The translations under genes and the position numbers were made by a program. Below, piece by piece: positions 1-56,685 of a stretch of DNA of 64,000 nt; position 1 is the stretch's first letter, and every line of letters begins with the position of its first letter. Source of the DNA: Gossypium raimondii (Eukaryota; Streptophyta; Magnoliopsida; Malvales; Malvaceae). The stretch spans positions 2,790,001 through 2,854,000 of the forward strand of contig NC_068565.1 of NCBI RefSeq assembly GCF_025698545.1, read 5' to 3'. The notes beneath the pieces were generated by a model. That model had not been told where the DNA came from. It worked only from the letters and a program-made list of their open reading frames with translations, and did no database searches.

Positions 1-309
1 CACACAGGCGTGTGACTAGACCGTGTGAGACACATAACCTGACCACACGGGCGTGTGAACCCTACAGCTTTGAAATTTTTTAATCTTTTACGAAAAATTC
101 TCTGAGTCTCCGAATTAGTCCCGATTTGTTTCTAACACGTATTTTGGGACTTGGGGGCTCAAATAAGGGACATTATGTATGAATTTAATTGGTTTTTGAC
201 CTAAATGTTATATGATATCAATGTATAAATTTAAGTCTGTTTGATCGGTAATTTTCAGTAATGCTTCGAAACCCTATTCCGACAACGGATTTGAGTTAGG
301 GGTGTTACA
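1..309 (+). mobile_element. 3' end of a Ty3/gypsy-type LTR (truncated by window edge)
   Basis: The segment contains the 'acacgggcgtgtg' type modules and ends in GGGGTGTTACA, the 3' terminus typical of plant gypsy LTRs. It aligns base for base with the last 309 bp of the LTR at 16084-17825. It sits at the same position relative to the adjacent S-RLK shard. It is therefore the duplicated copy of one insertion rather than a second insertion. Confidence 0.85.
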
Positions 310-430
310 ATTTAATGGTGTTATGGTGTATAAAGCAGTGGCAAATAATAAGTAAAGGGAAGATACTAAAGCTAGTAAAACAGAGCAGCTAATAGTTTTT
401 CTGATAATCTCTTCCCAGAACTTGGAATTA
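310..430 (-). pseudogene. S-RLK exon 1 shard, proximal arm
   Basis: Read on the minus strand, this encodes a decayed signal-peptide region (CSVLLALVSSLYLLFATAL) like that of the S-RLK at 9499. It corresponds to the shard at 17826-17921. The ATG seen there (GATTATGGG) is ATC here, and the DTITPS motif has become YTITPL. The reading is cut off at 309 by the LTR. This is a non-functional relic. Confidence 0.75.
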
Positions 431-511
431 TTTGGGATCTTAATTTATTTTTCCAGCTTTTTTCTTTTTCTTAAAAAAGGATGATAAGATGTAATAATGT
501 TTCATAACAGC

Positions 512-702
512 TTCTATGCATTTAACAATATACTAACGATAAGTCCACTATGTTTACTGTTGTTTCATTGCTTAATAGTGAGATTTCAATTTTTAACACA
601 CTAAAATGGCGTGCTTTCACTTAAACACCATTAATCACACATAATGTTCCACATAGGGCTTCGCTTTATGACGTAACTCTTATCGACTTTGATGGCAGAT
701 AA
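512..702 (+). pseudogene. S-RLK last-exon shard, proximal arm
   Basis: The sequence resembles the 3' end of the S-RLK last exon (13890-14064). It runs from the DRPTMSTVVSMLNSE-type region to a TTDFDGR-like terminus and stop. The frame is disrupted and no upstream kinase exons are present. The following noncoding DNA (about 703-1000) also matches the downstream flank of the intact S-RLK and the region 15430-15680. This shows that whole 3' ends of S-RLK loci were copied. Confidence 0.72.
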
Positions 703-2097
703 ATGTACAAATTAATTACTTTTAGTTTTTAGAAATAAAATTGTAAATATTAAAACCCTTCTTCATAATTTCTCATTTTGATCAGAGTTGTATTGGCTCA
801 AATCCATAGTAAATTTACAATTACACTTACACATGTAAAAACATGAAAACTCAATCTAATTAACACAAATCTAAATTCAAGTCCTATCTCAACTTAATTT
901 GAACATAAATAACCAATAAGTTGAAACTCCTCCAACTCAAACCGAAGATTTAAGAACTGTTTCAAACTTAAAATAACTCAAACACGCATACTAATCCATA
1001 ATGTTTTGAACCCAACCTAAACAACTTGACTAGTAAATCCGAGTATCTCAATCCCAAAATAACTTTAACTTAAAACTAACCCAAATTAAAAACTATCTCA
1101 AACCCTAATCCAAAATTACTCAAAAAATTTATTATTTGATGCAAATTGATTCTATGCAAAACCAACTCAGATCGATACATACTTTAATGCACTACTCGTG
1201 AACGTTATCACTTTGCTTTTGGTTACTGCATTCTGTCCCTAAACTTTTGTTTTTATTGTTAGTTGCTTGACTTTAGTTTTGAATTCGAAAATGAAATTTT
1301 ATAATAAAATCTTTGGAACATTAAAAAAAAGCTATAAAGAAGGATTAGACTTTGTACCAACACCAATATCAAAATGCAGCATTAATATATAAACAGTCTT
1401 TTCTTTAATAAAATGAGAGGGGGGGTGGAAGGATTACAAACAATAAATTCGCAGGATCAAAACAAAAGCTTCAACGTCACCATTATGAGAGCTAAACTGA
1501 CCATTTTAGCTCAGCAGGCAAAACTATGATACTCATACTTCCCTCCTGTAAAGCTACAACCAACAACATCAATCTGCATTGCCTATTAATCGGTGTCTTC
1601 CACATTGCACGGTGACGACTATTCCGAGAGAGACATCCATCCCGCATTTGGGAAATAATACTCAAGACACGGGATATCTGTATTGAACCCTGTACATGCT
1701 AACCAACTAACATCCCCATACCACAAATTTCACAACAGAGCATCAAAATAAGCTCCAATCTATATGGTAAGGACCCAAGGAAAGAAAAAATTTCTAGCAA
1801 GTTTCTATCATGATACACATAGGCCCACTTCAATGTTTTTTCATAATAATAAAAAAGGCATAAAAACACAAGTAATAAAACTAAAATCTCAAAGGAAATT
1901 GACCTTTACTTTAAAAAGTATCTTTGGAACTTCACCTAAACCATTGTCTGTGCTCCATTATAGACATATCATGTAAAACGGTATGGCTAATTGAATTCCT
2001 TTCAGCACATGGCATTCACTTGCGCCATTGTGTACTTCACAAAGTCGCCTTCTTGGACACGTTTGGATTTTAACTTCTCCTAGGTACTGCTTATCTA
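703..2097. other. Intergenic spacer and PAT1-type 3' flank
   Basis: No gene is seen. The segment is AT-rich, and from about 755 to 1100 it is shared three ways (here, 15430-15680 and 18236-18600). The part from about 1320 to 2097 is the 3' flank or 3' UTR of the PAT1 pseudogene and is nearly identical to 18790-19570. Short open frames here, such as 1764-1976, are present in both arms but look like chance. Confidence 0.7.
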
Positions 2098-4658
2098 TCA
2101 TGACTGCCCTACAAGCATAGGCCGTTGAGAGAGATCCAAAAGCTGCTTTTTCTGCTGGTCATTAAGGTGGGGTAAACATGCATGTAAGAGATCAACCGGC
2201 ATTTCTCTTTTAATAGCTTTGGCTGAATCTGATTCATCAATTGCCATATTTGGTTTGGCCTGCATTCGCAAGGACTGCATCACAGTGTCGTATTTGTTTA
2301 TGCAATACTTGGTAAGAAGGTTAAAGAATTCATCAAACGAGGCCTTCCAAAGGGACAGATTAGTCGTATTATAATTGCCCGCAGCACTAGAATCAGTCAT
2401 GAGCTTTGTTGCCCTATCAAGAACAGACTTAAGAATAAAAGATGTGTTGGAACATTGGCAGCAGCAAAAGAAGAGAACAGAGAGAACAGAACAATGAAAC
2501 TAGATACAAGAAAAATTTTACTTGCTCACAAATGTGCAGCAAGGGAGCATATGGCTGATAGCTCATTCAACTCATTCATTCAACTAGAAAAACAATATAT
2601 TTATAGTCAAATACATCACCAAATACTACCTACTACCACTAATCATACTTTGAAACAAGTAAAACTTAACTTGCACACAAGCTGATTATGTCAATCAGCA
2701 CCTAAAAACATCAAAACAATACCAACTTAGTTCATTTTCAACTTAGTAGCTTAACAAAGTAACTAAACAACCTTGTTATTACAGTAAGCATACGTACTGC
2801 AGCATGTTTACAAGCTGCATGCACTTAACCTAAAATATAACAGCAGCATGGTTGGCCAATTTTCAACAAGATGCTCCATCTCCAGCAGGACTTCCAAGGG
2901 GACGAAGCGGGCTGCTCAGAGGAACAAACCACAGATGCAAGACAGACACCAAGTGCACGAAGATCCATTCTATGAACACAAGAGGAAACAACCCTTGCAA
3001 GGTTAATAGTGATTTCATCTTCTCCTGGATCAGAGGGAAGGCCTCCGAACAAGAACCTTAAATAACGGAAAATGGACATGCAGACAATGCGCATAAGCTC
3101 ACCACCTGGAGGAAGAAGCTGAAGGAACCGTGCAAGAAGCTTCCGGCCTTTGGGGAGGGAAACTATCCTTAAAAACACAAGATCATCCTTCTGAGCAAGC
3201 TCATCTGTGTTACCACTCTTGCCAAGTGGGTCAACCAACTGAAGCAATGCACCAAGCCCTTCCAACAAAACCTGTCGTCTTTGTCTCATCTGAGCTCCAC
3301 CATCCTGCAACTGATTAAACTGTAAAAACCTATCAATATCGTCTACATCAAGAAGGCATAGACCATCCTCTATAGTAACTCTAGCAGCAAGCATAGGTTC
3401 CTCCTCCAGCGGAATATCAGAAGCTTTCTGATCATTGTTGGTGACAGCAGATGAATTTGGAGGGTCAACTTCAAGAAGAGGGCGAGGCCTGCGAACTGAA
3501 GAGAAAGGAAGCCTCCCAAGAGCATCAACCCGGAGAAAAGCATGAGGCTCAGTATTCGCACGTGCTCGGGGAGGAAGATCCCTAAGATGAGTTGGACAAA
3601 AATGATGTCTCAACTTCGCCCTAGCAGATTTTCTTCCAAGACAATCCTCTTGGTAATAATCATCCACGTAGGGGTCGTTACTGTGGGTTGCAACAAGCTG
3701 CATTCTAAGAATGCCCTCAATCTCATCGGTTGACATGTATTTGGATGTAAACTGAGGCCATCCACAATCACTCTTCAGCGCCCCACTATCAAAGCCTCGT
3801 AGACTCTGCCTACCTTTCTGAGCTGATTTGGCTCTTTGATCTCTCAGATCACCAATACCAAGTATAGCTTCAACCTTGTTCATTACAGGTGGGGACGGAG
3901 AAAGATGAGGATTAAATTGTTGTGACTGAATCCCAGAAAAGTGGCTAAATGAAGGCTGAACAGGATGCTGCAGTCTCTGCTGGTGCGACTGCAGCTGTGG
4001 CATTAACTGTGGTGGAATCAAACCATTTTGACGAGTTAACTGTTGTTGCAACATATTGTTCAAAACACTGGAATTATCTCCATACAGTTTTGGCTGGCTC
4101 CCCCATTTACTTGACGGCTGACTACTGACAGGCAGACCAGGAGCAAATTGAGGCATATTCCCACGATAATTTGGCCCATGGTGTAAGCCTGGCAGTTGAA
4201 GCTGAGAATTTGGGAGGCCAGAGAGGTTGGGTGAAGATGCCATCTGTGGTCCACCAGCCATATAAGGAATATTTAGGTGTCCAGAATGTTGGTTTGGTGA
4301 CGCCTGAGGAGATCTGCCATCGGGGGGAGGGTAAGAAATATAAGAAGATTTTGGAACTAAAATTGGTTCACTAGAGAAATGTTGGTGGTACTGTTGTTGT
4401 TGTTGTAGTTGCTGCTGCTGCTCAGGGTACGAGGATGTCCTGTAGAGATGCTTTGCATCCAAATTGGCCAATGGTTGTGAAGACCAGCGTTTGTCATCAG
4501 GAATACTTTCAGTTTCAAGAGGCTGCTGATCAAGCCAGTGAGGAAATTCCTCCCCATGTGTCCATTCGGCAGCAGATGAACCTTCAACAACATAATGATA
4601 AATGTCAATATTGGTATGTTGATCTGCGTAATTGGTCCCTTCACTGTGATGATGTAGG
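2098..4658 (-). pseudogene. PAT1-like pseudogene (last exon only), split by a solo LTR
   Basis: This is a second copy of the large last exon of the PAT1 gene at 19571-24740. It starts in the frame that gives [19 protein letters not shown] and would end at the same stop codon (2098-2100). Exons 1-4 are absent, because homology ends just upstream of the exon-5 acceptor. Two further lesions are visible. A 2-bp deletion at about 2908-2911 (gcgggctg versus gcgggggctg) shifts the frame within the [13 protein letters not shown] motif. A 424-bp LTR at 2445-2868 separates the last 115 or so codons. Conserved residues have also drifted: the [17 protein letters not shown]-type motif reads DDYYQEDCLGRKSARAK here. 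It is almost certainly non-functional as a PAT1 protein, although the remnant ORF of about 548 codons (2825-4471) could still be transcribed. Confidence 0.92.
2445..2868 (-). mobile_element. Solo LTR (Ty1/copia-like), 424 bp, 5-bp TSD
   Basis: The element has TG...CA ends (TGTTGGAACATTGG ... CCAATTTTCAACA). It is flanked by the direct repeat AGATG at 2440-2444 and 2869-2873, and it is missing from the paralogous site in the distal arm, which gives an exact empty-site comparison. A TATA-like motif (TATAAATATA) lies on the minus strand near 2598-2607, so the LTR points in the same direction as PAT1. No internal gag/pol is present, so it is a solo LTR. The copia assignment rests on end sequence and length and is tentative; the insertion itself is secure. 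Confidence 0.93.
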
Positions 4659-6298
4659 ATTTTCTAAGTGTTTAAATCTCTTAGTATTCTCAAATTTGTA
4701 GATAGATTTAATCTTGATCATTTATATAATTTAAATTGTACCGTTAGATCTAGGAAAGTTTAATTATAAATAGAGATCTTCCCTTCCATTTGTAAATAAT
4801 CTTTACAGTAATTGATATTACTGAGAGCATTTACTCAAATACTTAGATGTGCTATTACTTTTTTGTGGTTTTTTTGTTCAATCGCTACTTCTTTACTTTT
4901 GAGTTTGCTTCTGCTAACTTCGGTACCTTAGAGAATTTTCTTTATAAGTTATCGTCTAAGGCCACAGATTTGCTAGAGTTAGTTTTAGCCATATTGCACT
5001 TTCAAATAGAGAACACATATTCAAATCTGAGATACGAATTGACCAAAAATGATAAAATGGACATAGAAAATACCCGATTTGTTCACAAATTATTCAGGCC
5101 CATTGTTTATTTATATAAAAAAAATGATTGTCATTATCAAGCCAAGACTCAAATAACTTAGAAACTTAATTAATTTGATGACTCTAAAATTGAGTTCAAT
5201 TTATAATACTCTATTTGTTTCACTAAAAATGATTTCGAAAAATAATTTCGGAAAATGACTTACTTTTCTAGAAAAGCTAATTTTTTCGGTGTTTGGAAGA
5301 TTTCTGAAAATATTTCATAAAAGCATTTTCAATAAAACAAACATATATTTGAGATTTTGTTATCTTTTCATTATTTAATTAAATTTATTTCATAAATTTT
5401 ATTTATATTTTAATTAATCATGTTTTAGTTTTAATCAATCTTAATTTATTTAATTAAGCTTAATTGTTAATTTCATACATTAGGGAATATAAATTTATAG
5501 ATATAAATTTATGTTTAATTAAGTTGAAAGTGGTAAATATTTATTTTGAATATTATTTGGATGAGTAAGTTGAAAAATAATTTAATTTAATAAAATGGAA
5601 GTAAGGTCTAAATTGTAAAATTTGTAATTTTTGAATTCTAAGGATTTGAGTAGTAAAATGAAACATTGATGTCTGAAACATTGATGTAGTAACTAAATTA
5701 TATGATTATGAAATATGAAAATTTGGAAAGTTGAGCATAAAATAGTAAAGTTTGAAACTATAGGGGTTAAATTGTAAAAATTTCAAAACTTGAGTTTTAG
5801 GACTAATTTACATTATTTGAGAATTTGCAATTCTAAAAATAGAATATGAAAGTTTAACTGTTCAAAATTAAGTACTAATTTTTGGAAATTTTGACAATTT
5901 TAATTGTAAGGACTAAATCATAAAATCTGGAAATTTTAGAAAATTGATTGTTTTACAAAAGCTGTACAAAACGGGATTTAGAACTAAATTGTAGAATAAG
6001 AAAATCTATTTTTGAAGAATTAAATTGTAGAATAGTAAAAATTTGGATTTTAGAGACTAAATCGTAAAAAATATAAAATTAGAATGTAAGAGATTGTTTT
6101 CTTCGACAATGAAGAGAGCTTCCCCTTTGTCTTTTTTTTTTGTTTCTTCAAAAATAAAGACAATGAACATAACCTTATCAATTTAAAAAATATCTTACGG
6201 GAAAAAAATTGATAAGATATTTTTCTTAAAAAAATCTTGATTTTATCTTTTTTTGGGAGAATTGTTTCATTTGATAATTCATTTTCGATCAAACAAAC
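4659..6298. other. Intergenic DNA with LTR-like and foldback remnants
   Basis: No gene is seen. The first 250 bp have an LTR look: a TTATAAATAGAG box near 4764 followed by T-rich sequence. From about 5570 to 6100 the DNA repeats the 'ggactaaattgtaaaa' theme common in LTR-retrotransposon noncoding DNA. A loose inverted similarity between about 5213 (tttgtttcactaaaaatga) and the reverse complement of about 6298 (gtttgtttgatcgaaaatga) may mark an old TIR element. If the duplication is tandem, 4659 is the first base of the second unit. Confidence 0.5.
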
Positions 6299-9059
6299 TG
6301 TAACACCCCTTACCCGCATTCCTGATCGGAACAGAGTATGAGGTATTACTAAATTTTTAAAAAAAATTCAACAGCATTTCTGCTTATTTTTGCTTAAACC
6401 TCCTGCAAGTTTTCAACACAATTCAATATTCCAACCAAGTTCAGTTGTACAAACATACAAAATTTAACCATTAATAAACACTACATTTTAAATCGAACCA
6501 TAACATATATTTACATGGTGACGCCCCATTACATAAGTCGTCTATACATGCCATAATTTCCAGAATACTAGTAGCCAAAATACTCAAACGTGGATGATAG
6601 TGTAGATGATTGTCTGACTCCGTCCAAATTCCGAGTTGATGGAAATCACTATAATCAAGGGAAAAATAAAAACGAGTAAGCATATAGCTTAGTAAGTAAA
6701 CATATGACAAATAAATAATTTCTCACATGACTACACCATAGTATAAATTTATTCACAAATAAATTTCATTATTTGTGTAATTTCCAGCAAGCTGGTTTTC
6801 TGCGTCATGACCACTAATTTATTTTTATTCGGAGCTACATGGCTTCAAATTGAATTCTGTAAATTTTTCATGAAACTAGACCCATATATCTTTCTATTTC
6901 AGAATTTTTGATCGAGCCAATTAGTACAGTTTATTCTTTAAATCTTCCCCTGTTTCACTGCCCAACAGTCCTGACCTCCCCTTACAAAATTTCACATAAC
7001 TCTCTGTACAAGTTTCAAAAAATGTTCTCGTTTGTTTCTATTAAAAATAGACTCAAAAAGGAATCCAGTCATATAGATTTCAAGCCATAATTATTTTTTT
7101 TAAATTTTTGGTGATTTTCCAAAGTTGGAATAGGAGATTTCGAAATCAATCCAGCCCTGTCTCAGTAAAATTCAAATATCTCCAAAAATACAACTCTTTT
7201 GCTTACTATATTTCTTTCATATGAAAATAGACTCATTCAGCTTCAATTTCATATATTATTTAACCTCTAATTCATTTTCCACCATTTATGGTGATTTTTC
7301 AAAGTTGCCCAACTGCTATCATTCAAAACAGTTGGCATTCAAATTGTCTCTTTTTGTGTTTTTGATTTTCCTCCCATCTTATACATGGGTTGATTAATTA
7401 TCAAACCCAATATTCCTCCCATAAACTTGTCCACCACATATATGAATATTCACCTTCCCAATTTACTCGTTGAACACTCGGAATGTTAACCGTTATCGGT
7501 GGATTCCGCACTTAGCAACCACCAATGAATCGAGGAATCAGCACACAGCAACCCCTTGGGGGAATCAGCACTTAGCAACCCCCTTCACATTTCAGATGCG
7601 GTGGAATCAGCACTTAGCAACCACCAAATGAGTCGGGGAGTCAGCACTTAGCAACCCCTCGGGGGAATCAGCACTTAGCAACCCCCTTTCACATTTAAAA
7701 TACGGTGGGATCAGCACTTAGCAACCACCAATAGGTAGGGGAATCAGCACTTAGCAACCCCTCGGGGGAATCAGCACTTAGCAACCCCCTTTCACATTTA
7801 AAATATGGTGGGATCAGCACTTAGCAACCACCAATAGGTAGGGGAATCAGCACACAGCAACCCCTTTATATGCAATATGCTCCGGCCTATTCCGAGTGTT
7901 CAACCAAAAACCGTGTTTTGCAACCCCTTACCACCTTTCTCGATTTAACAACATTTTTGGAATCTTGCCAAACATTTATTTTATATTCAAATACATCTCA
8001 ACACATATCAAATAATACCAAAATAATACATTAAGTCACGTGTTTACTTACCTCGGTGCAAAATATCGTAATTTTGCAATTCACTCAACTATCTTTTCTT
8101 TTCCTCGTTTGAGATAATCTTCCCGTTTTTCTTGATCTATAATGGCAAATTTAACTCATTTAATGTTCACATTTATTGAAATAATCCACCACCCAACTTT
8201 TTGAAAAATTACAATTTTACCCCCAAACTTCTGCATAATTACACTTTTGTCCCCAAGCTCGGGAATTAAACTTCATCACTTATTCTTATGTTTTATGACA
8301 TGCTGAACATTTTTCGCTTCTATGGCAACATCAAATTCTCACTCTAGCACATACTTTTGAACATTAACAATTTTTACCGATTATGTCAATTTACCCGTTT
8401 TCGTTTAAAATCGCTTAGCAAAAGTTGTTTAACATAATTTCTAGCTTCATATTCCACCATAAAACAGAAAAATAAACACTTTTCACCTATGGGTATTTTT
8501 CCAAATATAAACCCTAACATGAATTATTGATAAAATAAGCTAAACCGAGCTACGAGGATTTCAAAAATGCAAAGAACATTAAAAACGGGGCTAAGATGCA
8601 CTTACTATGAGCTTGAGAAAGCAAAGAAACCCTAGCTATGGTGTCTTCCAAAATTTGGCAGCAACTATGGAGAAGATGACACCATTTCTCCATCTTTTTC
8701 CCATTTTATTTCTTTTTATTACTAAATGACTAAAATGCCCCCATTTAAAAAAATCTATTTCACCCATTTCTTATGTCTATTTTTGTCCATCAATTAACTA
8801 ATGGTCTAATTACTACATAAGGACCCCCAACTTATAATCTCATAACAATTAGACACTTCTAACATGTAGAACTCAACTTTGGCACTTTTTACAATTTAGT
8901 CCTTTTCACTAAATTGAGTGCCCAAACGTCGAAATTTTCGAACGAAATTTTTCCGTAAAATTGTAGACCATAAAAATATAACAATAACCATATTTTCACT
9001 CGTCAGATTTGTGGTCCCGAAACCACTATTCCGACTAGGCCCAGAATCGGGCTGTTACA
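6299..9059 (-). mobile_element. Solo-LTR-like Ty3/gypsy element, 2761 bp, TSD CAAAC
   Basis: The element begins TGTAACACCCC and ends GGGCTGTTACA, giving inverted TGTAAC/GTTACA ends. It is bounded by the 5-bp direct repeat CAAAC at 6294-6298 and 9060-9064. Read on the minus strand it opens TGTAACAGCCCGATTCTGG, a typical 5' LTR start, so it is oriented minus. No gag or pol reading frame is present. Its unusual length comes partly from the internal tandem array at about 7500-7866. I cannot exclude an internally deleted element rather than a true solo LTR. Confidence 0.85.
7500..7866. repeat. Tandem array of 'aatcagcacttagcaacc' units within the LTR
   Basis: About a dozen copies of the core (g)gaatcagcacttagcaacc occur, alternating between variants flanked by 'ccacc', 'cccct' and 'ccccctttcacattt'. 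Two or three variants combine into a higher-order repeat of roughly 100 bp, for example the near-identical blocks starting around 7665 and 7765. The array lies wholly inside the LTR and has no spacers of unique sequence. Confidence 0.9.
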
Positions 9060-9498
9060 CAAACAACATAAAATAAAGAAAACATTTTATATGTAAACAA
9101 AGTATAAGATGTCATCTTCCTTTTAGGACCAAAGCGTAATGTTGAAATTGGAGTGGTATTACTGTTTCATAGTTCACCATTTTTGAAACTTCAATGCAAG
9201 AACAAGTCAACAAATTTAAAAAGACATCAGCGCTTGAAAAAAATTGGAATCCTGAGGTAGACATTTGCAGTTGCCTTGAAACATCATTACATCATATCCC
9301 AAATCAGGGGTAGAGTTAGGGGCGCTTGCACTGTCTCGACCCCAAAAATAACTTTTTCTATTTAAATATTTTCATAATTGATAAAATATTAAATTAATAA
9401 TAATAAAATTGAATTTTGACTTTTAGGAATGATAGAAGTTTAATTTTATCTTTTAATCATTCCTCAACCATAGCCTCAATTCCAAGTTCTTGCAAGAG
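9060..9498. other. Upstream region of the S-RLK gene
   Basis: This is AT-rich sequence between the gypsy LTR and the S-RLK start codon. It includes a relic motif near 9305-9345 (ggggtagagttaggggcgctt) of a kind common in repetitive plant DNA. No clear core promoter element can be assigned. The LTR boundary only about 440 bp upstream means the original promoter may have been separated from its distal part. Confidence 0.45.
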
Positions 9499-12400
9499 AT
9501 GGAGAAAGTTATTAGCGACTCTGTTTTACTAGCTTCTGAAATTTTATTATTGTCTTGTTTTTACTTACAATCTGGCACTGCTTCTGACACCATAACACCA
9601 TCGAAATCCATCAAAGACCCTGAAATTATAATCTCCCAGAGTGGAGTTTTCCGATTGGGATTCTTCAGCTTTGCTAATTCCAGCAATCGTTATGTAGGGA
9701 TATTGTACCATCAAATCCCCGTACAAACAGTGGTATGGGTAGCAAACAGAAACAAGCCTCTCAAAGACTCTTCTGGGATTCTCAACATATCAGATGATGG
9801 CAACCTTGTTGTTTCCAATGGAAAAGCTGAGATTCTTTGGTCATCAAATATTACGAATTTGGTTCCTAATGCAACAACTGCCCAGCTTTTAGACTCTGGA
9901 AACCTTGTCCTTAGTAATGGTGAGGATGGAGCAAGCAGCTTATGGGAGAGTTTTGAAGATCCTTCTAATGCCTTCCTTGAAACTATGAAGATCAGAACTG
10001 ATGTTAAGAAAGGTCGTAAAGTGGAGCTGAAATCATGGAAAAGCATTGATGATCCATCTGATGGTAGCTTTTCTTTGGCTTTGAACCTTTCAATATCCCA
10101 GAGCTTGTCATTAGGAACAATAACAAGCTCTATTTTCGGAGTGGTCCATGGAATGGAAATACCTTTATTGGTGTTATTATGAAGACTGTTTATATTGATG
10201 GGTTTCATGTTGTTGCAGATTATCAACAACAAACGTACTATTTCACTTATGAGTATTCTGATAACTATAGGTTGAAGTACTATGAACTGGATTCTCAAGG
10301 AAAATTATTTGAGCGGACATGGGATGGGGGGAAAGGGGAATGGATAAACAGGTACTCTACTACTCTAACAGAATCTTGTGTTTATGGACAGTGTGGGCCA
10401 TTTGGGATCTGCGATCGAACAAAACAACCCATTTGCAGTTGCTTAAAGGGGTTTAAACCTAGGAATATAGAGGAATGGAGTAGAGGTAATTGGAGTGGTG
10501 GGTGTTTTAGGACTACCCCTTTACAATGCCAAAGGGATAAGAACAATGGCAGTGAAGCAGGCCAAGGAGATGATGATGGGTTTTTGAAGCTGCAGACGAT
10601 GAAAGTGCCGGCATTTCCGGACCGATCATCAATAAATAACGGTGAATGCAAAGATCAATGCATGAAGAACTGTTCGTGCGTGGCTTATGCGTATGATGCT
10701 GGCATTGGTTGCATGTTTTGGAGTGGAGATTTGATTGATATGCAGAAATTCTCCACTCAAAGAGTCAATCTTTACATTCGTCTACCATCTTCAGAGCTTG
10801 GTAAACTAGTCTTCCATGTCGACCATGTGTTGAATTGCCTCAATTAATCTGCTTTTTGGTGTTGAAGTTTTATTAACCAAGTTTTCGATTTGCAGATAAA
10901 GGAAAAGCACTAAAGTTATTGTTATTACAGCAGTAATTGTGGGTATAGTAACCATTACGATTATTATGCTCTTCTTATGGTGTTGGATGGCTAAAAGAAG
11001 AGGTAACATCTCTATCTTTATTTATTAGTTATTAAGATATTCAAACTCAACTCCATTACTCTGTTTGAAAATGATTGAATCCAATTCGCATTTTTTTTTT
11101 TTAATTAGGTAACTCTGAATTCAGTGTATCTCTAATTTAGCAATTTGCATCTCAGGAAGGAAACAAAAACACAAACAGATCAAACTCCAACTCAACAAAG
11201 GAAATGCAATGACAAAATTTTCTAGTGAAAATGTGGGAGAATATTCAATCGGAGTTAAACTCCAGCAGCTGCGGCTATTCAATTTCGAAGAACTCGCCAT
11301 CGCGACGAGCAACTTCGATCACGCAAAAAAGCTAGGGCAGGGTGGTTTCGGTCCAGTTTATAGGGTAATTAATAATGGCGATTTCCAGCTAATCCAGAGT
11401 CAGTGAAATGACATTTTTCTTTTTGCAGTCAAGTCTTGTGAGCTGAATATTGTGTGCAGGGAATATTAAGTGATGAAAAGGAAATAGCAGTGAAGAGATT
11501 ATCGAAAGCTTCAGGGCAAGGATTAGAAGAATTTATGAACGAAGTGGAAGTGATTTCTAAGATTCAACATCGAAATCTGGTTAAATTGTTTGGGTGTTGT
11601 GCTGAAGCAGAAGAGAAGATGCTCGTCTACGAGTATATGCCCAACAAAAGTTTGGACACTTTTGTCTTTGGTTAGTAACTCACGCTAATCCTCTTTCTAC
11701 TATTTTCGAAACTCATATTAAGCCCCAATTAAATTTAAAATCAAACAGGATGAAGTCAAAACATTTCTATCATAATTTTAAATTAATGTATACATCTCTA
11801 TCATCTTTTCTTCTCTCGTCTTTCTAATTTAGAAAGATTAGTTTTTATACATTAATGAAAAATGATCATCCTTTATATTTTATTTCCTCTCACTTTTCTT
11901 CTCAACTAAGTACACTCAAAATTTATTCTCTTTTCAGTTTTCCATTCTCTACTCTCATCCTTTCACTTTTCTACCCAACCAAACACACCCTTGGTCTATT
12001 CCAAGATTTAAATAGTAATTGTTGCTCAATAATTATTTTAATTGATCGATGTAACATCAATTACAGTTACAATCATAATGAATACAATATGGTAGAAAAT
12101 ACAATGATGGTTTTAGTTAGATCCTCGGTTATAAGAATTAATTTTTCATTTTTAAGGTCTTACCATTTAGTTTTTGTTGTAGATCCAATTAAAAAAACCG
12201 TCTTGGATTGGAGAAAACGCTTTAACATTATTGAAGGGATCAGCCGAGGATTGCTTTATCTTCATAGAGATTCAAGACTAAAAATTATACATAGAGATCT
12301 AAAAGCAGGCAATGTTTTACTCGATCAAGAGTTAAATCCAAAAATTGCAGATTTTGGGATGGCGAGAATTTTCGGAGGAGATGAAAATCAAGCTAACACT

Positions 12401-14064
12401 AAAAGGGTTGTTGGAACTTAGTAAGTTGGAATATCCTCCCTGTCTTTTCTTTTCTTTTTGTTCATTTTTTTTCCACTAAAGTATGGTGTAGATATGTCTA
12501 TGATCGAGTCTGGCCATCTCATGATGCTTAAAGAAAATACATGCCTAAATTGGAATAGGGTCTAGCTTTGCTCAGTCTGTTGGCTTATTTTATTGTTTAA
12601 AAAAAGGCATTGTAAAAATTTAAATATATTTAAGTCAAATTATGGTTTTCGCCATTATAAATTGGTCAAATTTGAGATTTAGTATCTATGCTTTAATATG
12701 ACATTTTTGGTTCCTCTATTTTTATTTTATTATTAGTAAGTTCAAATATGTAACACGTGTTTTTACAAATATCTCTTCCAACTCGTCATATTGACATAGA
12801 ACTATATTCCTTCCAACTCATCATATTGACATGGAACTTTTATAATAGAACCGTTGTTTTAAGAAAATCTACACTAGTATTTAACAGAATAGTTAATAGT
12901 ATTTATTTAAACTAACTAAAGGCATTATAAAAATAGAGGGTTAATTCATGTCAAATTAAAATATATGTGCTAAATCTCAAATTTAAGTATAGTAGCGGGA
13001 TCAAAACTAAAATTTTATGTTATATTCATATTCTTGTATGATTAAATTTAAATAAAAATGTTTTTATTATTTAATTCTAATTTAGACCCGATTTAAACTA
13101 GGATTGTAATGGTGGGGGGTTTTTTTGTAATGGTTATTTTTTTTAATGTTAAAATACAGTGGTTATATGTCTCCTGAGTATGCAATACAAGGGCGATTTT
13201 CAGAGAAATCAGATGTGTTCAGTTTTGGAGTTCTACTGTTAGAGATTGTTAGCGGAAGAAAAAACACAACCTTGTTCAACAATCAGGATTATTTTAGCCT
13301 CTTGGGATATGTAAGTTTATAAGATAATTAGAAATGTTGGAAGATCGAATTAGGGGTGTATGTCATCATATTTGCAAGCTATTTGAGCTGCTCATGCAAG
13401 CTGAATTTGAGTATCTTAATGCTTGAATAAAATAGTTCACGAGCTGAATTTGAGAAATCCTAACACTTGGATTGAGTAGCTTGCAAACCTAATTAAGCTT
13501 CTTCTTTTTTTCAATTAATAATGAGAATTTCTGATTCAAACTCAAGTTCAAGTACAAACAATCAAGTTTGAAGTTGAACATGAGAATGAAACCCATTTTA
13601 GACTTGGGTAAACAAGCTTAATCAAGAGAGAGCAGTTCAACCTTTATATTGAATTGAGCTGATCAAACTCTTTTGAAGCTTTGAGTTTAGAATTTCGAGT
13701 CTAAGTTAAATTGGATAATTTAAGCATTAATTTAGACAAACTTTTTTTCTGTTTATAGGTCTGGAAACTATGGAACGATGGCAACATTTGGAGCTTAGTA
13801 GACAAGGTGGTTTTGGAGCCAAAATCTAATTTAAAGAATGAGAAAGAAATAAGGAGATGCATACATATTGGATTGCTATGCGTTCAAGAATATGCTAACG
13901 ATAGGCCCACTATGTCTACTGTTGTTTCAATGCTTAACAGTGAGATTTCAAATTTTACCACACCAAAACAACCTGCTTTCACGCAAACCCCACTAATCAC
14001 CCATGATGATCAAAATAGAGTTTCAGTTAATGATGTAACTCTTACCGACTTTGATGGCAGATGA
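9499..14064 (+). pseudogene. G-type lectin S-receptor-like Ser/Thr kinase with two 1-bp frameshifts
   Basis: The family acts as plasma-membrane receptor kinases. Seven exons are visible: 9499-10800, 10896-11002, 11156-11364, 11460-11670, 12183-12420, 13160-13310 and 13759-14064. In order they encode a signal peptide, B-lectin domain (VVWVANRNKPLKDSSG), S-locus glycoprotein region (YFRSGPWNGNTFIG), PAN/Cys-rich domain (ECKDQCMKNCSCVAYAY), one TM helix, and a full kinase with [32 protein letters not shown], the YMSPEYA activation segment and a TLTDFDGR tail. All introns are GT-AG. I start at the ATG at 9499. A base is missing near 10077 (tttggctttg), and exon 2 is one base short near 10900-10907 and runs into a stop unless an A is restored. 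Both lesions destroy the receptor-kinase frame. It could yield only a truncated secreted lectin. Sequencing error is the alternative. Confidence 0.88.
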
Positions 14065-14164
14065 AGGTACAAATTAATTACTTTTAATTTTTAGAAATAA
14101 AATTGTAAGTATTGAAAAGATATAATTTAATTGTTTTAGTTTAGAAATAAAATTGTAAGTATTG

Positions 14165-15412
14165 AAACTGATAAGTGATAAAAGTAACATGTGTTAATTT
14201 CGTTCTTAATACGTTTATGGATGATTATTTATGCAAAATGGTTAATTTTATGCTCCTGATCCTTTAAATTAAATGTTTCTATACTTAGGAGAGCATTTGG
14301 GAGCAAAAGGAGCAAAAAACGAGTGAAAATCAGACATTTTGAGCAAATTTTAGAAACCACACGGGCTGGGTCTTCCCACACCAGCTGGACACACGATAAT
14401 GTGCTAGACCGTGTCGATTTCACGATTCACATCTCAAACACGCGGAAAAATGAAATTTTTAGGCTTTCTAAGCATTCTAAAGTCTATAAATACCAAATAG
14501 AAGAAGAGAAAAGTAAGCCAACAGAGAATATTGAAGAAAACAACTCGAAGAACACCATTGGAGCCAACTCTGAAGCAAATTTCTATCAAGATTAAAGACC
14601 TCCTTTTAATTTCCTTTGAAGTTTTTATGAGTTTCTTTATTTCTTGTAGTTATTCTGTCTTTAACATATTTTTATTCACAATTATGAACTAATTTCCTAG
14701 ATACCTAAAGAAGATGAACCCTATGATGAATTATATTATTTGATTTCTATTTTATGTGATAAATATTTGATTCTTGTTCTCAGTTATGTGTGCTTATCTA
14801 TTGTTTTAATATTTTTGGGATATTAATTCATGTTTAATGTACTTAAATCAAAGGAGAAAAAGTCTCTGTTTAAGAGTAGAACTAGCATAATTGAGTGGAG
14901 TTGCATGCAATCCTAGAAACAGGACGACATAAATCTACTGGATTAAAGTCAAATTTAATAAGGGAATCTATAAATCGAGTTAATGCGACAATTTAATTAG
15001 AAAGAAATTTCAATTAATCAACCTAAATTCAGTTGTTCTTACTCTCGAAAGAGATACTAGTTTAATTTATGGGTTTCTACGGATCAAGATACCAAGTGAA
15101 TAAATCGTTTGATTCAGATTCATAATGATAGACGAAGTCTAGGTGGATTCTTTCCTGGGTATTGTCTCGCTTATTGGTTATTATTTAATTACTTTCCTAA
15201 TTTATTCTCTGTTGAGTTCATTAGTTAAATTAATTTAGTAATCTTAGTTTAAATAAATCAGTCCAAGTTGTCGGTTAAATAATAGGAAAATGGTAGCTAT
15301 ACTAGTACTTTTAGTCCTCGTGGATACAATATCTCTACTCACCGTAACTATACTATTTATCGATAGGTGCACTTACATTTGTCGTATTTTTAGTTAGTCA
15401 CGTGATACATCA
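14165..15412. mobile_element. LTR-retrotransposon fragment (Ty3/gypsy-like)
   Basis: This block separates two stretches of S-RLK 3' flank that are contiguous in the arm at 700-760. It begins near TGATAAGTGATAAAAG and ends near GTCACGTGATACATCA. The internal motif 'ctatactatttatcgatagg' (15342-15361) is of a kind found toward the 3' end of plant gypsy LTRs. Exact ends and a TSD could not be fixed. The frame 14323-14595 inside it has no recognisable product. Confidence 0.6.
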
Positions 15413-16019
15413 AAAGATTTTCTTTATAATTTCGTTTTGATAAGAGTTGTCAATTTATTGGCTCAAATCAATTGTAAGTTTACAATTACACTTAAACATG
15501 TAAGAACATGAAAACTCAATCTAGTTAACCCAAATCCAAATTCAAGTCCAATCCCAACTTAATTTGAACATAAAAAATCAATAAGTTGGAACTCCTCCAA
15601 ATCAAACCGAAAATAGCTTAAATCTAAAGTGTTTCAAACTTAAAATGACTTAAACTCGAAATAACCCACATACTAACTCATTTGTCCCCTAAAGGCTGCA
15701 AGAAATCTCTCACAATTTGTGTATAACTTATCTCATCTATTGAATCCTATAAGTATGATTTATCTTCCTTGTCTATCTCATCTATTGAATCTGATAAGTA
15801 TGATTTATCTTCCTTAATAAGGTGAGTTCATATAGGCAAGATCTAGGATGTAATTTTGTCTTTTAACTACCTCAATTTAACTTAAATTTAATTATATAAT
15901 GTAAAAATATTAATATAAAAATGATTTTTTATAAAAGCTAGCCGATCCAACTAGGCGAATTTGGACTTACCTAGTTATTGAATTGTTCTTCTAGTTGTTA
16001 TAAATTGGATGTGTTTGTT
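15413..16019. other. S-RLK 3' flank copy and spacer
   Basis: From about 15430 to 15680 this repeats the noncoding flank found at 755-1000 and 18236-18480. It is followed by AT-rich DNA containing a short tandem duplication. No gene is seen. Confidence 0.6.
15727..15820. repeat. Two-unit tandem repeat (about 47 bp)
   Basis: The unit, roughly 'tatctcatctattgaatc' followed by 'ataagtatgatttatcttcc', occurs twice head to tail with about two mismatches. It is a simple local duplication with no evident function. Confidence 0.8.
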
Positions 16020-17921
16020 TGTAGAGGTGAATAATCCCAAATGAAAAACTCCACCCCGGGATATTACAAATTTAGGGTGTTTGTGTAACGACCCGATAGT
16101 CACAGGTGTCGGAAAGTGCATTTTCGAGACTCCGTTATTGTAAATAGGACTCGTAAATATTTTTAATAAATATTTACGAAGTTAGTTGTGTAGTTAATTA
16201 GGAGGTGAAACTGCATGAATTAAGAGTAATTAGGTAAAAAGACTAAATTGTATAAAGGGTGAAAGTTGAATTATAGATTAAAGAAAAATTAAAGGGACCA
16301 AAGGAGAAATTATGCCAATGGTCATGATTGAGGCCGCATAAGTGTATATATATTATAAATATTTAAAGTTAATATATATATATTATAATATTAAAGCTTA
16401 AAAGTTAAGTATATATATTATTATATTATAATGATAAAGTAAAAGAAAAACAAATGGAAAATGAAGGAGAGAAAGAAACGAAACAAAGAAGGAAAGAAAG
16501 AAAGAAAAAAAGAAAGAAAGAAGGAGAATAGTTAGGGTTTCAAGGGTTCAAAGCTCAATTAGTTAGTCAATTTAGTCTCTTTTTTTTCTAATTTTTATGT
16601 TTTTGGAATTCGGTATTAAATACTACCCGACCCATGTCAAAATTTTAGAAATTATTAAGTTTTTAAGTGATGTTTTGTTGAATAATTTAGTATTGGGGAT
16701 TAAATTGATAGATTTTAAGTTAGAAATGAAAAGGATTGAATTGTAGAATAAATTGTAAATTTTGAGTATTAGGGACTAAATTGTGAAAATTTTGAAATTT
16801 GGGGTTTAAGTGAAATTAGAGAGTTAAATCTAATCTAAAGTGGAATTTGTATGAAAATATAAGATTGATTGTGAAGAAATAAAATTAGTCTCGGTTTAGG
16901 GACTAAATTGGAATTTAGGCAAATATTGAGTAAAAATTGAAATATTAAATATGAGATTGAATTGTATTGTATTGATGAATTTTAATTGTTTTAAATCCGT
17001 AGCTAACGTCATATCGAAATCCTCGACTAAAAAGGGAAAAGATAAAGTCGACGAGGAATAGCTCGGAATTTCTAGTTTGTATTTATATAATTCGAATCTA
17101 ATTATTAATTGTTGTATTTTGATTAAATGTTATGGTAAGTGATTAAGGTGAGAATTATTGTGTTTTACAATTGAAATGGATTGATTTAGCATGTAATGAA
17201 TTTATTGAATTTATATTGATTGAATTGGTATATATATATATATATTGAGTATATTGATTATTTGAATTGAAATTTATATTGGTTGTATTTGGAAAGTGAA
17301 TTGAAATCCTATTAATTGTATCGGACTAAGTCGGACATAGATGGCATGCCATAGGATTGGAAGAGTTCAGGAATTTCTTCGACTTCGAGTCGATGAGACA
17401 CTGGGTGTCAATTTATTACTTCGGATTAATTCGATGAGGCACTGGGTGCCAATTTACTTCGGTTTAACCGATAAGACACTGGGTGTCAATTTATTACTTC
17501 AAATTATCTAATGAGGCACACGGGCATGTGATTGGACTGTGTGAGACACATGGCCTGACCACACGGGCGTGTGAACCCTACAGCTTTGAAAAATTTTAAT
17601 ATTTTATGAAAAAAATTTTAAGTTTCCGAATTAGTCCTGATTTGTTTCTAACTCGTATTTTGGGCCTCGAGGGTTCAAATAAGGGACATTATGTATGAAT
17701 TTAATTGATTTTTGACCTGAATATTATGTGATATCAGTGTATAAATTTATGTCTGTTTGATCGATAAATTTCAGTAATATTCCGAAACCTTATTTCAATG
17801 ACGGATGTGGGTTAGAAGTGTTACAGTTTGATGGTGTTATGGTGTCTAAAGCAGTGGCAGATATTAAGTAAAAGCAAGATACTAAAGCTAGTAAAACAGA
17901 GCAACTAATAGTTTTTCCCAT
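16020..17921 (-). pseudogene. Inverted S-RLK exon 1 pseudogene interrupted by a 1.74-kb LTR
   Basis: On the minus strand, 17921-17826 encodes MGKTISCSVLLALVSCFYL and then ATALDTITPS, a good S-RLK signal peptide. The coding trace resumes beyond the LTR at 16083-16020 with sequence matching the intact paralogue's 'ccctgaaattataatctccc ... gtggagttttccgattggga' stretch. It is frameshifted there and then ends. Only the first 60 or so codons of the gene survive. It lies tail-to-head next to a last-exon shard on the opposite strand (18058-18203). Confidence 0.85.
16084..17825 (+). mobile_element. Solo LTR (Ty3/gypsy), 1742 bp, TSD GTTTG
   Basis: The element begins TGTAACGACCCGATAG and ends GAAGTGTTACA, and is bounded by perfect 5-bp repeats GTTTG at 16079-16083 and 17826-17830. 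It contains a purine tract (about 16470-16530), a (TA)n run near 17229-17247, and three to four 'gacactgggtgtcaattta' type tandem modules (about 17385-17510). No gag/pol is present, so it is a solo LTR. It inserted into exon 1 of the inverted S-RLK pseudogene. The proximal arm carries the same insertion (1-309). Confidence 0.94.
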
Positions 17922-18057
17922 AATCTCTTCCCAGAACTTGGAATTATTTGGAATCTTTAAGGATTTACACTTAAATGAACTCAACCCAAATTTATTTTTC
18001 CAGTTTTTTCATTTTCTTAAAAAAGGATGATAAGATGTAATAATGTTTCATAACAGC

Positions 18058-18203
18058 TTCGAATGTTGATATTAGATTGCTATGCATTTCAGAATATGCT
18101 AAAGATAAGTCCAATCTGTTAACTGTTGTTTCATTGCTTAATAGTGAGATTTCAAATTTTAACACACTAAAATGACGTAACTCTTACTGACTTTGATGGA
18201 ACT
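18058..18203 (+). pseudogene. S-RLK last-exon shard, distal arm
   Basis: This matches the end of the S-RLK last exon (ANDRPTMSTVVSMLNSEIS-type region, then the DVTLTDFDG region). About 50-60 bp between those two motifs, present in the proximal shard, have been deleted. It is a relic. Confidence 0.7.
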
Positions 18204-19570
18204 AATTAATTACTTTTAGCTTTTAGAACTCCACTTCATAATTTCGTTTTGATCAGAGTTGTATTGGCTCAAATCCAAAGTAAATTTACAATTACACTTA
18301 CACATGAAAACTCAATCTAATTAACACACATCTAAATTCAAGTCTTATCCCAACTTAATTTGAACATAAATAATCAATAAGTTGAAACTCCTCCAACTCA
18401 AACCGAAACCGAAAATGACTTCAATCCAAAGTGTTTCAAACTTTAAATAACTCAAACTCGCATACTAACCCATAATGTTTTGAACCCAACCTAAACAACT
18501 TGACTAGTAAATCCGAGTATCTCAATCCCAAAATAACTTTAACTTAAAACTAACCCAAATTAAAAACTATCTCAAACCCTAATCCAAAATTACTCAAAAA
18601 CTTTATTATTTGATCCAAATTGATTCTATGCAAACCCAACTCAGATCGAAACATACTTTAATGGACTACTCCTGAACGTTATCACTTTACTTTTGGTTAC
18701 CGAATTCTGTCCCTAAACTTTTGTTTTTATTGTTAGTTGCTTGACTTTAATTTTGAATTCGAAAATGAAATTTTATAATAAAATCTTTGGAACATTAAGA
18801 AAAAGCTATAAAGAAGGATTAGACTTTGTACCAACACCAATATCAAAATGCAGCATTAATATATAAACAGTCTTCTCTTTAATAAAATGAGAGGGGGGTG
18901 GAAGGATTACAAACAATAAATTCGCAGGATCAAAACAAAAGCTTCAAGGTCACCATTATGAGAGCTAAACTGACCATTTTAGCTCAGCAGGCAAAACTAT
19001 GATACTCATACTTCCCTCCTGTAAAGCTACAACCAACAACATCGATCTGCATTGCCTATTAATCGGTGTCTTCCACATTGCACGGTGACGACTATTCCGA
19101 GAGAGACATCCATCCCGCCTTTGGGAAATAATACTCAAGATACGGGATATCTGTATTGAACCCTGTACATGCTAACCAACTAACATCCCCATACCACAAA
19201 TTTCACAACAGAGCATCAAAATAAGCTCCAATCTATATGGTAAGGACCCAAGGAAAGAAAAAATTTCTAGCAAGTTTCTATCATGATACACATAGGCCCA
19301 CTTCAATGTTTTTTCATAATAATAAAAAAGGCATAAAAACACAAGTAATAAAACTAAAATCTCAAAGGAAATTGACCTTTACTTTAAAAAGTATCTTTGG
19401 AACTTCACCTGAACCATTGTCTGTGCTCCATTATAGACATATCATGTAAAACGGTATGGCTAATTGAATTCCTTTCAGCACATGGCATTCACTTGCGCCA
19501 TTGTGTACTTCACAAAGTCGCCTTCTTGGACACGTTTGGATTTTAACTTCTCCTAGGTACTGCTTATCTA
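18204..19570. other. Spacer and PAT1 3' flank
   Basis: No separate gene is seen. The sequence from 18236 to 18600 is the S-RLK flank repeat. About 18830-19570 is probably the 3' UTR and terminator region of the PAT1 gene, nearly identical to the proximal arm. The small frame 19237-19449 is conserved only because the arms are recent copies. Confidence 0.6.
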
Positions 19571-22500
19571 TCATGACTGCCCTACAAGCATAGGCCGTTG
19601 AGAGAGATCCAAAAGCTGCTTTTTCTGCTGGTCATTAAGGTGGGGTAAACATGCCTGTAAGAGATCAACCGGCATTTCTCTTTTAATAGCTTTGGCTGAA
19701 TCTGATTCATCAATTGCCATATTTGGTTTGGCCTGCATTCGCAAGGACTGCATCACAGTGTCGTATTTGTTTATGCAATACTTGGTAAGAAGGTTAAAGA
19801 ATTCATCAAACGAGGCCTTCCAAAGGGACAGATTAGTCGTATTATAATTGCCCGCAGCTCTAGAATCAGTCATGAGCTTTGTTGCCCTATCAAGAACAGA
19901 CTTAAGAATAAAAGATGCTCCATCTCCAGCAGGACTTCCAAGGGGACGAAGCGGGGGCTGCTCAGAGGAACAAACCACAGATGCAAGACAGACACTAAGT
20001 GCACGAAGATCCATGCTATGAACACAAGAGGAAACAACCCTTGCAAGGTTAATAGTGGTTTCAGCTGCTCCTGGATCAGAGGGAAGGCCTCCGAACAAGA
20101 ACCTTAAATGACGGAAAATGGACATGCAGACAATGCGCATAAGCTCACCACCTGGAGGAAGAAGCTGAAGGAACCGTGCAAGAAGCTTCCGGCCTTTGGG
20201 GAGGGAAACTATCCGTAAAAACACAAGATCATCCTTCTGAGCAAGCTCATCTGTGTTACCACTCTTGCCAAGTGGGTCAACCAACTGAAGCAATGCACCA
20301 AGCCCTTCCAACAAAACCTGTCGTCTTTGTCTCATCTGAGCTCCACCATCCTGCAACTGATTAAACTGTAAAAACCTATCAATATCATCTACATCAAGAA
20401 GAAGGCATAGACCATCCTCTATAGTAACTCTAGCAGCAAGCATAGGTTCCTCCTCCAGCGGAATATCAGACGCTTTCTGATCATTGTTGGTGACAGCAGA
20501 TGAATTTGGAGGGTCAACTTCAAGAAGAGGGCGAGGCCTGCGAATTGAAGAGAAAGGAAGCCTCCCAAGAGCATCAACCTGGAGAAAAGCATGAGGCTCA
20601 GTATTCGCACGTGCTCGGGGAGGAAGATCCCTAAGATGAGTTGGACAAAAATGATGTCTCAACTTCGCCCCAGCAGATTTTCTTGCAAGACAAGCCTGGT
20701 GGTAATAATCATCCACGTAGGGGTCATTACTGTGGGTTGCAACAAGCTGCATTCTAAGAATGCCCTCAATCTCATCGGTTGACATGTATTTGGATGTAAA
20801 CTGAGGCCATCCAAAATCACTCTTCAGTGCCCCACTATCAAAGCCTCGTAGACTCTGCCTACCTTTCTGAGCTGATTTGGCTCTTTGATCTCTCAGATCA
20901 CCAATACCAAGTATAGCTTCAACCTTGTTCATTACAGGTGGGGACGGAGAAAGATGAGGATTAAATTGTTGTGACTGAATCCCAGAAAAGTGGCTAAATG
21001 AAGGCTGAACAGGATGCTGCAGTCTCTGCTGGTGCGACTGCAGCTGTGGCATTAACTGTGGTGGAATCAAACCATTTTGATGAGTTAACTGTTGTTGCAA
21101 CATATTGTTCAAAACACTGGAATTATCTCCATACAGTTTTGGCCTGCTCCCCCATTGATTTGACGGCTGACTACTGACAGACAGACCAGGAGCAAATTGA
21201 GGCATATTCCCACGATAATTTGGCCCATGGTGTAAGCCTGGCAGTTGAAGCTGAGAATTTGGGAAGCCAGAGAGGTTGGGTGAAGATGCCATCTGTGGTC
21301 CACCAGCCATATAAGGAATATTTAGGTGTCCAGAATGTTGGTTTGGTGACGCCTGAGGAGATCTGCCATCGGGGGGAGGGTAAGAAATATAAGAAGATTT
21401 TGGAACTAAAATTGGTTCACTAGAGAAATGTTGGTGGTACTGTTGTTGTTGTTGTAGTTGCTGCTGCTGCTGCTGCTGCTCAGGGTACGAGGATGTCCTG
21501 TAGAGATGCTTTGCATCCAAATTGGCCAATGGTTGTGATGACCAGCATTTGCCATCAGGAATACTTTCAGTTTCAAGAGGCTGCTGATCAAGCCAGTGAG
21601 GAAATTCCTCCCCATGTGTCCATTCGGCAGCAGATGAACCTTCAACAACATAATGATAAATGTCAATATTGGTATGTTGATCTGCGTAACTGGTCCCTTC
21701 ACTGTGATGACGTAGGGTCTCAGAAAGTAGTTATTTATTTACAACAGTGAAAATAATGGGTAACACAGTTCATACAAACCCTTCAGTTAAAAATTATAGC
21801 ATAGGAAACCATCAGTTATTCAATCCAAGAAGGATTGGACCAAAACCACATCAATCATCAGCAATTGACTGATAGAAGACAGTACTGAGATGAATAAACT
21901 CACTTTGTCTGGACCCCCCATCACCAATTATCCTTGAGCCTCTTGGTCCACTAATGGCTGTGTTCAACTGCAACAAAATCACAAGCTAGCATCAGCACCA
22001 CTAAATCCAGGCCAGGACTAACCACCAAGAAACATGCATTCATATCCAATACAATCCACTGGTGAATTATGATTTAAGAACAAAAAAAAAACAATAGGAA
22101 CTTTGTCCTTTATGATTTATTTATAGTCCAAAGATTCGATCTAGGAGGAATCAAGGAGATGCAATTTAATAGTAAATTGATTTTTCTGATGAACTTCATA
22201 AAAACTAAGCCAGATATCAAGCAAAGATTCTGGTAGCTTAATGCTAGTGCCGTTACTTAAAAGTTACAATAAAAATTTGGAGGATCAATCCTGTTAGAAC
22301 ACTAGCAGATGATTTGCAAAAGGAGTTGGTAAAGCATTTCTTGTATTTCTTGTATATCTTAAGAAACCAGAAAGATACAAGCTCAAAAGTAAGTAGGTGC
22401 TTCAGTGACATGCTGAGGTTTCATCACTTTAATTCGCTCAGAATGGATAAGGTCTTAAAGCTAACAGTAATTGTGGTTCAGGGGCACCACACTTCTGCAT

Positions 22501-45239: not shown

Positions 45240-45720
45240 GCTCTAAGCAAGGCCCATAGCCATTAAACTCATTTTATGAATAAATATAAGGAAAAAAAAA
45301 AGTGCTTTATTTTTTCCTTGTTTAACCGAGGAAATTCCATCTCCCTTTCCCACTCTAGTTGCTCACAGTCACAGTTTCAGCTGTAGAACAAGAAGGAAGG
45401 CGCTTCGCTCAACCAAAGGCAAGTTCTTTTTTTCCTTCATAAGTCAATTTCTTCAGTTTTGTTTATTTATTAAGGTTTTTGGTATTTGTTTTTGTTTTTA
45501 TTTTATTTTATGAATTGAGAATTTCTTTTTTAAAAAATCAAAATTAAAAGCAACTTCACTTTTTTTGTGGCTGTTGTTTCTTAGAAAGAATGGAAATTTT
45601 GATGGTTTGTAATAGGATGAATTATTTGATTTTCTTTCGAATTTTGATTAGAGCTTTACTTGCATAAATATGTTTCGAAAAAATGAAAATTTTTTTACGG
45701 GGGTGGGGTTCTAAATTCAT
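45240..45720 (+). promoter_or_regulatory. NAL1 promoter/5' leader and start of leader intron (paralogous to 51315-51780)
   Basis: This block aligns with 51315-51780, upstream of the neighbouring gene. Shared landmarks are 'attttatga..aa..gg' followed by an A-run and 'gtgct', then 'ccgag', 'ccatctcc', 'ctgtagaa', and 'gaaggcg.ttcg.tcaacca' ending in 'aaggcaagttctttt'. The similarity continues into the intron ('ggatgaattat.tgatttt'). The likely leader donor is AAAG/GCAAGT at 45418/45419, a GC-AG type site. The coding exon begins after an acceptor shortly upstream of 46383. Confidence 0.78.
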
Positions 45721-51314: not shown

Positions 51315-51780
51315 CTTCAAAGCCCAAACCTAACCGAGTACATTTTATGAAGCAAAAGGGAAAAAAAAAGGTGCTTCTTCCTGTTCTCCCGAGAAAATGC
51401 CGTCTCCATTTTACCTCTCTTGCTGCTCATAATCACAACTTTTTAGCCTTTCAGCTTTGAATTCACTGTAGAAGTTGAAGGAAGGCGATTCGTTCAACCA
51501 AAGGCAAGTTCTTTTTATTTTTTCACAAAATCAAATTGGAAGTTTCTTGGGTTTTTTTTTTAAATTTTTTTTACAGGTATCTGGGCATTTATTTCTGTTA
51601 ATTTTTTATGTTATGAATTGGGGTTTTTTTTAAATATTGTAAAAATTCAGAAATTAAAGCAAAGTTCATTTTTTGGCTGTTATATGTTTTGTGATAGGAT
51701 GAATTATATGATTTCTTCTGGATCTGTTTAGAGTTTTTCATGCATGAATATGTTCAAAAAATGAAAAATTTATGGGTTTT
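51315..51780 (+). promoter_or_regulatory. Promoter/5' leader of the oxygenase-like gene (paralogous to 45240-45720)
   Basis: This is the homologue of the NAL1 leader block, in the same orientation and at a similar distance from the coding exon. The leader ends 'gttcaaccaaag' at 51503. It is followed by GCAAGT, the same GC-type donor context as in NAL1. The coding exon starts at 52095 after an acceptor at about 52067. Confidence 0.78.
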
Positions 51781-56682: not shown

Positions 56683-56685
56683 GAA

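Follow-up and report, generated by a model that had tools for sequence, protein, structure and literature searches.

The window analysed here, a stretch of 64,000 nucleotides from Gossypium raimondii (C1:2790001-2854000 of a 750.8-Mb assembly), contains part of a tandem array of S-receptor-like kinase genes together with the right-hand neighbour of this array, the gene PAT1, whose last exon is included in the repeat unit. The region is a tandem segmental duplication, in which direct copies of one unit adjoin each other with order and strand unchanged. Also read were the 200 kb that precede the window on its left, for a joined total of 264 kb. The features that carry the argument are the following, with window positions (LTR, long terminal repeat).

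4659..21716, plus strand: repeat unit B, 17,058 bp, from self-BLAST and upstream homology
17517..21716, plus strand: distal arm, from self-BLAST
2099..4643, minus strand: proximal copy of the PAT1 last exon, with a 2-bp deletion and split by a solo LTR; 612-codon open stretch at 2825-4663
19571..21701, minus strand: native PAT1 last exon; 719-codon open stretch at 19571-21730
4656..4658, no strand: duplication junction, AGG present both in the last intron of PAT1 and in a truncated LTR
4656..4943, plus strand: 5'-truncated fragment of a dispersed LTR, fused to PAT1 and matching the dispersed copies listed at 72-78% (40 of 807 candidates scored)
9457..14061, plus strand: G-type lectin S-receptor-like kinase gene of unit B, first exon frame-broken

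The self-BLAST of the window, in which identity counts gaps, showed that 1-4658 and 17517-21716 are colinear direct repeats, as a sequence-only reading of this DNA had claimed. Three matches in the same orientation, each with an E-value of 0.0, join the two arms: 1-612 with 17517-18178 (82.5% over 663 columns), 668-2444 with 18172-19917 (94.6% over 1790 columns) and 2868-4658 with 19912-21716 (97.5% over 1805 columns). Gap-free identity in 150-bp bins goes from 85.3% in the LTR part up to 100%, and between 430 and 980 the copies differ by indels, the largest of about 60 bp. The homology extends to base 1, and the window alone does not show the left edge. The right edge can be placed to the single base: AGG stands in both copies (4656-4658 and 21714-21716) before they diverge; the sequence-only reading had this exactness right but placed the edge at the last exon itself, whereas it lies about 15 bp inside the intron (exon edge at 21701, from an inferred splice acceptor on the minus strand). 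Beyond 21716, the native gene has no match within 4659-17516 in the window self-BLAST.

The left 200 kb were then searched with window 1-22500 as query, keeping rows of at least 150 columns. Homology to 4659-17489 was found at C1:2770332-2770520, 2774153-2775152 and 2776284-2784455, in order and on the same strand, which shows that a unit A precedes unit B; absence of 4659-17500 homology upstream had been named as the result that would speak against a tandem unit. The matches pair 3455-4844 with C1:2769126-2770520 (96.6%), 5214-6298 with C1:2774153-2775152 (85.5%), 9106-13355 with C1:2776284-2780506 (93.6%) and 13615-17489 with C1:2780606-2784455 (91.3%). Unit A thus spans C1:2770332-2794658 (24,327 bp) and unit B C1:2794659-2811716, after which comes the remainder of native PAT1. 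The extra length of unit A consists mainly of two stretches not present in B, one of 3.6 kb (2770521-2774152, replacing window 4845-5213) and one of 5.5 kb (2784456-2789997); at the corresponding places unit A has nothing that matches window 4845-5213 or 6299-9105. On its left, unit A borders on a further PAT1 fragment, which carries the same junction, and the earlier proposal that the proximal arm is the end of a preceding unit, with its junction at 4658/4659, agrees with this arrangement.

At 4658/4659, PAT1 is fused, about 15 bp into its last intron, to the inside of the truncated LTR, with AGG as a 3-bp microhomology. The same novel junction between unit end and unit start is present at three places on C1, namely 2794658 (window 4658), 2770331 (24 kb upstream) and 2535017 (260 kb upstream), so that three of the four PAT1 tail copies on C1 carry it, and it is absent in the native copy (2811716). 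Junction-crossing matches number at least three among the 41 listed (40 of 600 candidates scored). Because the same junction stands at three places, it was probably formed once and then re-duplicated. The tandem unit of 17,058 bp predicted from the letters alone is upheld, but not as the product of one duplication, given the three junctions and a fourth, native PAT1 copy. Other breakpoints also show short shared sequence: ATTTG at 2769126-2769130, and 6 bp with one mismatch at 2534904-2534909.

The junction LTR, at 4656, is cut internally and does not end at its own terminus. A gene fragment captured by a transposon (Pack-MULE or Helitron) would lie between element termini with a target duplication; the element observed at 4656 is this internally truncated LTR. 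At least five of the ten LTR copies fetched (L041, L042, L044, L045 and L047) have, by eye, sequence in common on the left of the cut, which indicates truncation on the 5' side. An insertion of this LTR into a once longer PAT1 copy was considered as the cause of the homology loss at 4658 and judged unlikely, since the LTR is cut internally and since the native gene beyond 21716 has, as said, no self-BLAST match within 4659-17516. In the next kinase unit to the left (unit C, about 2763350-2769130), an LTR of the same family lies upstream of the kinase without PAT1. LTR sequence 5' of the cut was looked for there with plain shuffles, not dinucleotide-preserving ones: four of ten family copies beat all 200 shuffles and six did not, and with the PAT1 arm none of ten did. 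Unit C appears to be the unfused arrangement and seems to keep the LTR 5' of the cut, this being the weakest link in the chain.

Since the junction adjoins a transposable-element fragment, and a small PAT1 fragment lies 260 kb away, a dispersed insertion might be considered, in which a transposon or a repair event brought a copy of the PAT1 tail alone into the array, no whole unit being duplicated in tandem. We regard this as improbable: the whole unit, and not the PAT1 piece alone, recurs upstream in order, which speaks strongly against it, and the junction LTR is cut internally instead of ending at a terminus.

The identity between copies changes abruptly along the units. The best single step in identity was sought in each of seven alignments, with 1000 permutations apiece, and in four of the seven the step exceeded every permutation, counts that flatter the steps and are not clean probabilities, the stretches having been picked after viewing the profiles. 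These four are the noncoding part of the arms at 309-2098 (92.4% to 98.5% at 995), units A and B at 13701-16050 (93.6% to 99.4% at 14967) and at 14900-17489 (98.8% to 92.6% at 16011), and unit B against the copy 260 kb away at 4656-6298 (step at 6130, near the alignment end). The step was matched in 1/1000 permutations for units A and B at 13701-17489 taken as one and in 11/1000 for unit B against the far copy at 9060-14600, and the arms at 1243-2098 gave no step in the permutation scan (352/1000). Such abrupt steps suggest later exchange between units by conversion or unequal exchange. A single age for the duplication was dropped in view of these steps.

The far kinase copy at C1:2536628-2542191 (L029/L030) is 99.4% identical to window 9059-14625, 262 kb away, with diverged flanks; it differs from 9060-14600 by 10 mismatches in 5528 columns, against 100 differences in 1593 columns for 4656-6298. 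An assembly artefact, by uncollapsed haplotypes or a misjoin, would account for a 5.5-kb tract 99.8% identical to a copy 262 kb away, and the near-identity of this far copy may be an assembly error instead of exchange. As an explanation of the locus, however, an artefact is improbable, as no N occurs across the joined 264 kb, the arms differ by 2-18% and the copies carry private insertions. These insertions, and the LTR common to both units, are as follows.

1..308, plus strand: 3' end of a solo LTR (unit A copy of 16084-17825) in the proximal arm; 82.5% self-BLAST match; 16085-17826 against 2783095-2784455 plus 2789998-2790309
2445..2868, no strand given: solo LTR of 424 bp, TGTTGG...CAACA, target duplication AGATG; the native copy is without this LTR
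6299..9059, no strand given: solo LTR of 2,761 bp, TGTAAC...GTTACA, target duplication CAAAC; empty site in the copy at C1:2536628
16084..17825, no strand given: solo LTR of 1,742 bp, target duplication GTTTG; common to units A and B

Matches to the PAT1 last exon at 95% or more are four, all on C1 (among 30 matches listed; 24/24 candidates scored): the native exon, the proximal copy (97%), 2769126-2770331 (97%) and a 114-bp piece at 2534904-2535017 (96%). A retrocopy of PAT1 mRNA, which the presence of the last exon only might recall, is refuted and hardly deserves any credence, as the homology lies outside the mRNA, going about 1.4 kb beyond the stop codon into kinase remnants and the LTR, and takes in some 15 bp of intron (splice site inferred). 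The PAT1 paralogue on C13 aligns unbroken with 19569-21809 at 83.7%, past the stop point of the proximal copy, and this alignment across 21716 to 21809 indicates that the distal arm is the ancestral arrangement; that the distal copy runs on into the native gene and the proximal one does not had been recognised already. Judged by this paralogue, the proximal copy is a truncated copy of a longer ancestral gene, i.e. a partial gene duplicate, and its 2-bp deletion, inserted LTR and truncation suggest that it is dead. The fragment upstream of unit A has one stop in its best frame. In the 1.2 kb common to three copies, private differences number 16 in the proximal, 17 in the upstream and 7 in the native copy, with one site where all three differ, a pattern to be expected if the fragments change faster and without constraint. 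Between the arms, the Kimura two-parameter (K2P) distance amounts to 0.030 for the 3' flank and 0.016 for the exon.

We take the gene to be PAT1 from its resemblance to plant PAT1 sequence together with a weak Pfam match, the last exon alone hitting PF09770 with E 0.0038 and 16.1 bits, below the cut-off of 25. The proximal piece 2825-4660 gave no match to the PAT1 family profile in Pfam, and no solved structure matched the PAT1 exon in a PDB search with E up to 0.1. The native gene probably continues to about 24.3 kb, a stretch that would hold its N-terminal part.

The kinase array comprises, in the 264 kb read, 18 loci matching the S-locus/PAN stretch of the unit B kinase, all 18 on the plus strand. 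In unit B, the B_lectin, S_locus_glycop, PAN_2 and Pkinase domains were found above the Pfam cut-offs on separate open stretches, and DUF3403 below its cut-off; two solved chains, SRK8 and SRK9, match the kinase. Around the S-locus domain the reading frame stays open for 163 codons in unit A and for 259 in unit B, compared with 430-521 in 8 of the 18 loci; these short stretches show that both units have a broken kinase first exon, a state that several other loci share. The nearest kinase remnant points toward the PAT1 tail.

514..986, plus strand: kinase 3' end and 3' flank remnant in the proximal arm; 514-755 with 13876-14117 (84.7%), 759-986 with 15420-15658 (84.2%)

In both arms an inverted piece resembling the start of the kinase first exon (9478-9605) adjoins the direct-strand kinase 3' end, at 315-429 and 17827-17945, and may be what an older inverted kinase copy left behind.

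The solo LTR that ends at 308 is presumably gypsy-like. The family of the 424-bp solo LTR has at least 41 rows genome-wide, 2445-2868 itself included (40 of 376 candidates scored), and eight pairs about 0.86-1.07 kb apart occur among the 41 rows listed, such as C10:3608297 with C10:3609225; such pairs look like a miniature LTR element, which we assume to be TRIM-like. Tandem repeats of about 102 bp lie at 7497-7866, inside the 2.76-kb solo LTR. The self-BLAST showed also a tandem repeat block at 26436-27276, upstream of PAT1, a direct repeat pair at 45270-45693 and 51341-51771 (67% identity), and several palindromic and inverted repeats at 56280-58800, perhaps transposon remnants.

We put at roughly 90% the probability that the kinase array caught the tail of its neighbour PAT1 through one microhomology-mediated junction, which was later re-duplicated, with conversion or exchange afterward. 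The mechanism of recombination and the order of events we infer as follows. A tandem array of S-receptor-like kinase genes would have stood beside PAT1, and one illegitimate, microhomology-mediated recombination would have joined the last intron of PAT1 to the LTR interior upstream of a kinase copy, the founding join being most likely end joining at the 3 bp of shared sequence. The product would be a repeat unit made of LTR fragment, kinase, flank and PAT1 last exon. At least two further duplications of its junction would have produced units A and B and the copy at a distance of 260 kb. Private LTR insertions would later have entered the units, the PAT1 fragments would have decayed, and parts would have been reset by gene conversion or unequal exchange.

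Several observations weigh against this history, to which the choice of scanned stretches given above must be added. Read separately, the proximal PAT1 pieces contain no in-frame stop, and the PAT1 fragment preceding unit A begins only at 2769126. The alignment of the PAT1 paralogue on C8 ends at 21645 and picks up again only at 21881; it is thus silent on the break, and the polarity rests on C13. The divergence of the arms is uneven (82.5% to 97.5% by BLAST), which one simple event does not predict. The far kinase copy is closer to unit B than the adjacent unit is, by conversion or by assembly misplacement.

No description of this locus was found in a literature search judged by titles and abstract openings. 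PMC2686159 treats the maize p1/p2 locus and the P1-wr cluster, the latter showing end joining plus unequal recombination. The cotton locus resembles them as a tandem array with end-joining breakpoints that make gene fusions with unequal recombination and with several-kb stretches common to copies, read there as possible conversion tracts. In maize the array gene itself is fused, whereas here a non-family neighbour, PAT1, was caught at the array edge. As in the partial gene duplicates reviewed in PMC3449122, the derived copy is truncated with a breakpoint within an intron, and the ancestral copy is decided by comparison, here with a paralogue only; the PAT1 pieces differ in being fragments with no new reading frame or function shown, and they probably lack a function, of which no sign was found, none being sought. 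Unequal sister-chromatid exchange via short repeats (PMC8831618) is similar in that tandem amplification is begun by a short shared sequence, but that model has short repeats flanking each unit, and the junction here shares only 3 bp.

The locus is a well-resolved but ordinary partial-gene tandem duplication, of a kind and by a mechanism already known. For annotation, PAT1-like models at 2099-4643 and C1:2769126-2770331 would be fragments and not whole genes. In Arabidopsis, PAT1 is, according to PMC6305221, an mRNA-decay factor with a known immune role, phosphorylated by MPK4. We offer as a conjecture, and a very improbable one, that the PAT1 tail fragments, which are convergent with the kinase copies, give rise to antisense transcripts or small RNAs directed at native PAT1 mRNA; if true, antisense fragments would tie the dosage of an mRNA-decay factor to the expansion of the neighbouring receptor array. 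The locus offers an example, resolved at the sequence level, of a gene from outside the family being drawn into an array of receptor genes; it shows the founding breakpoint, the re-duplication, the private insertions and the likely tracts of exchange.

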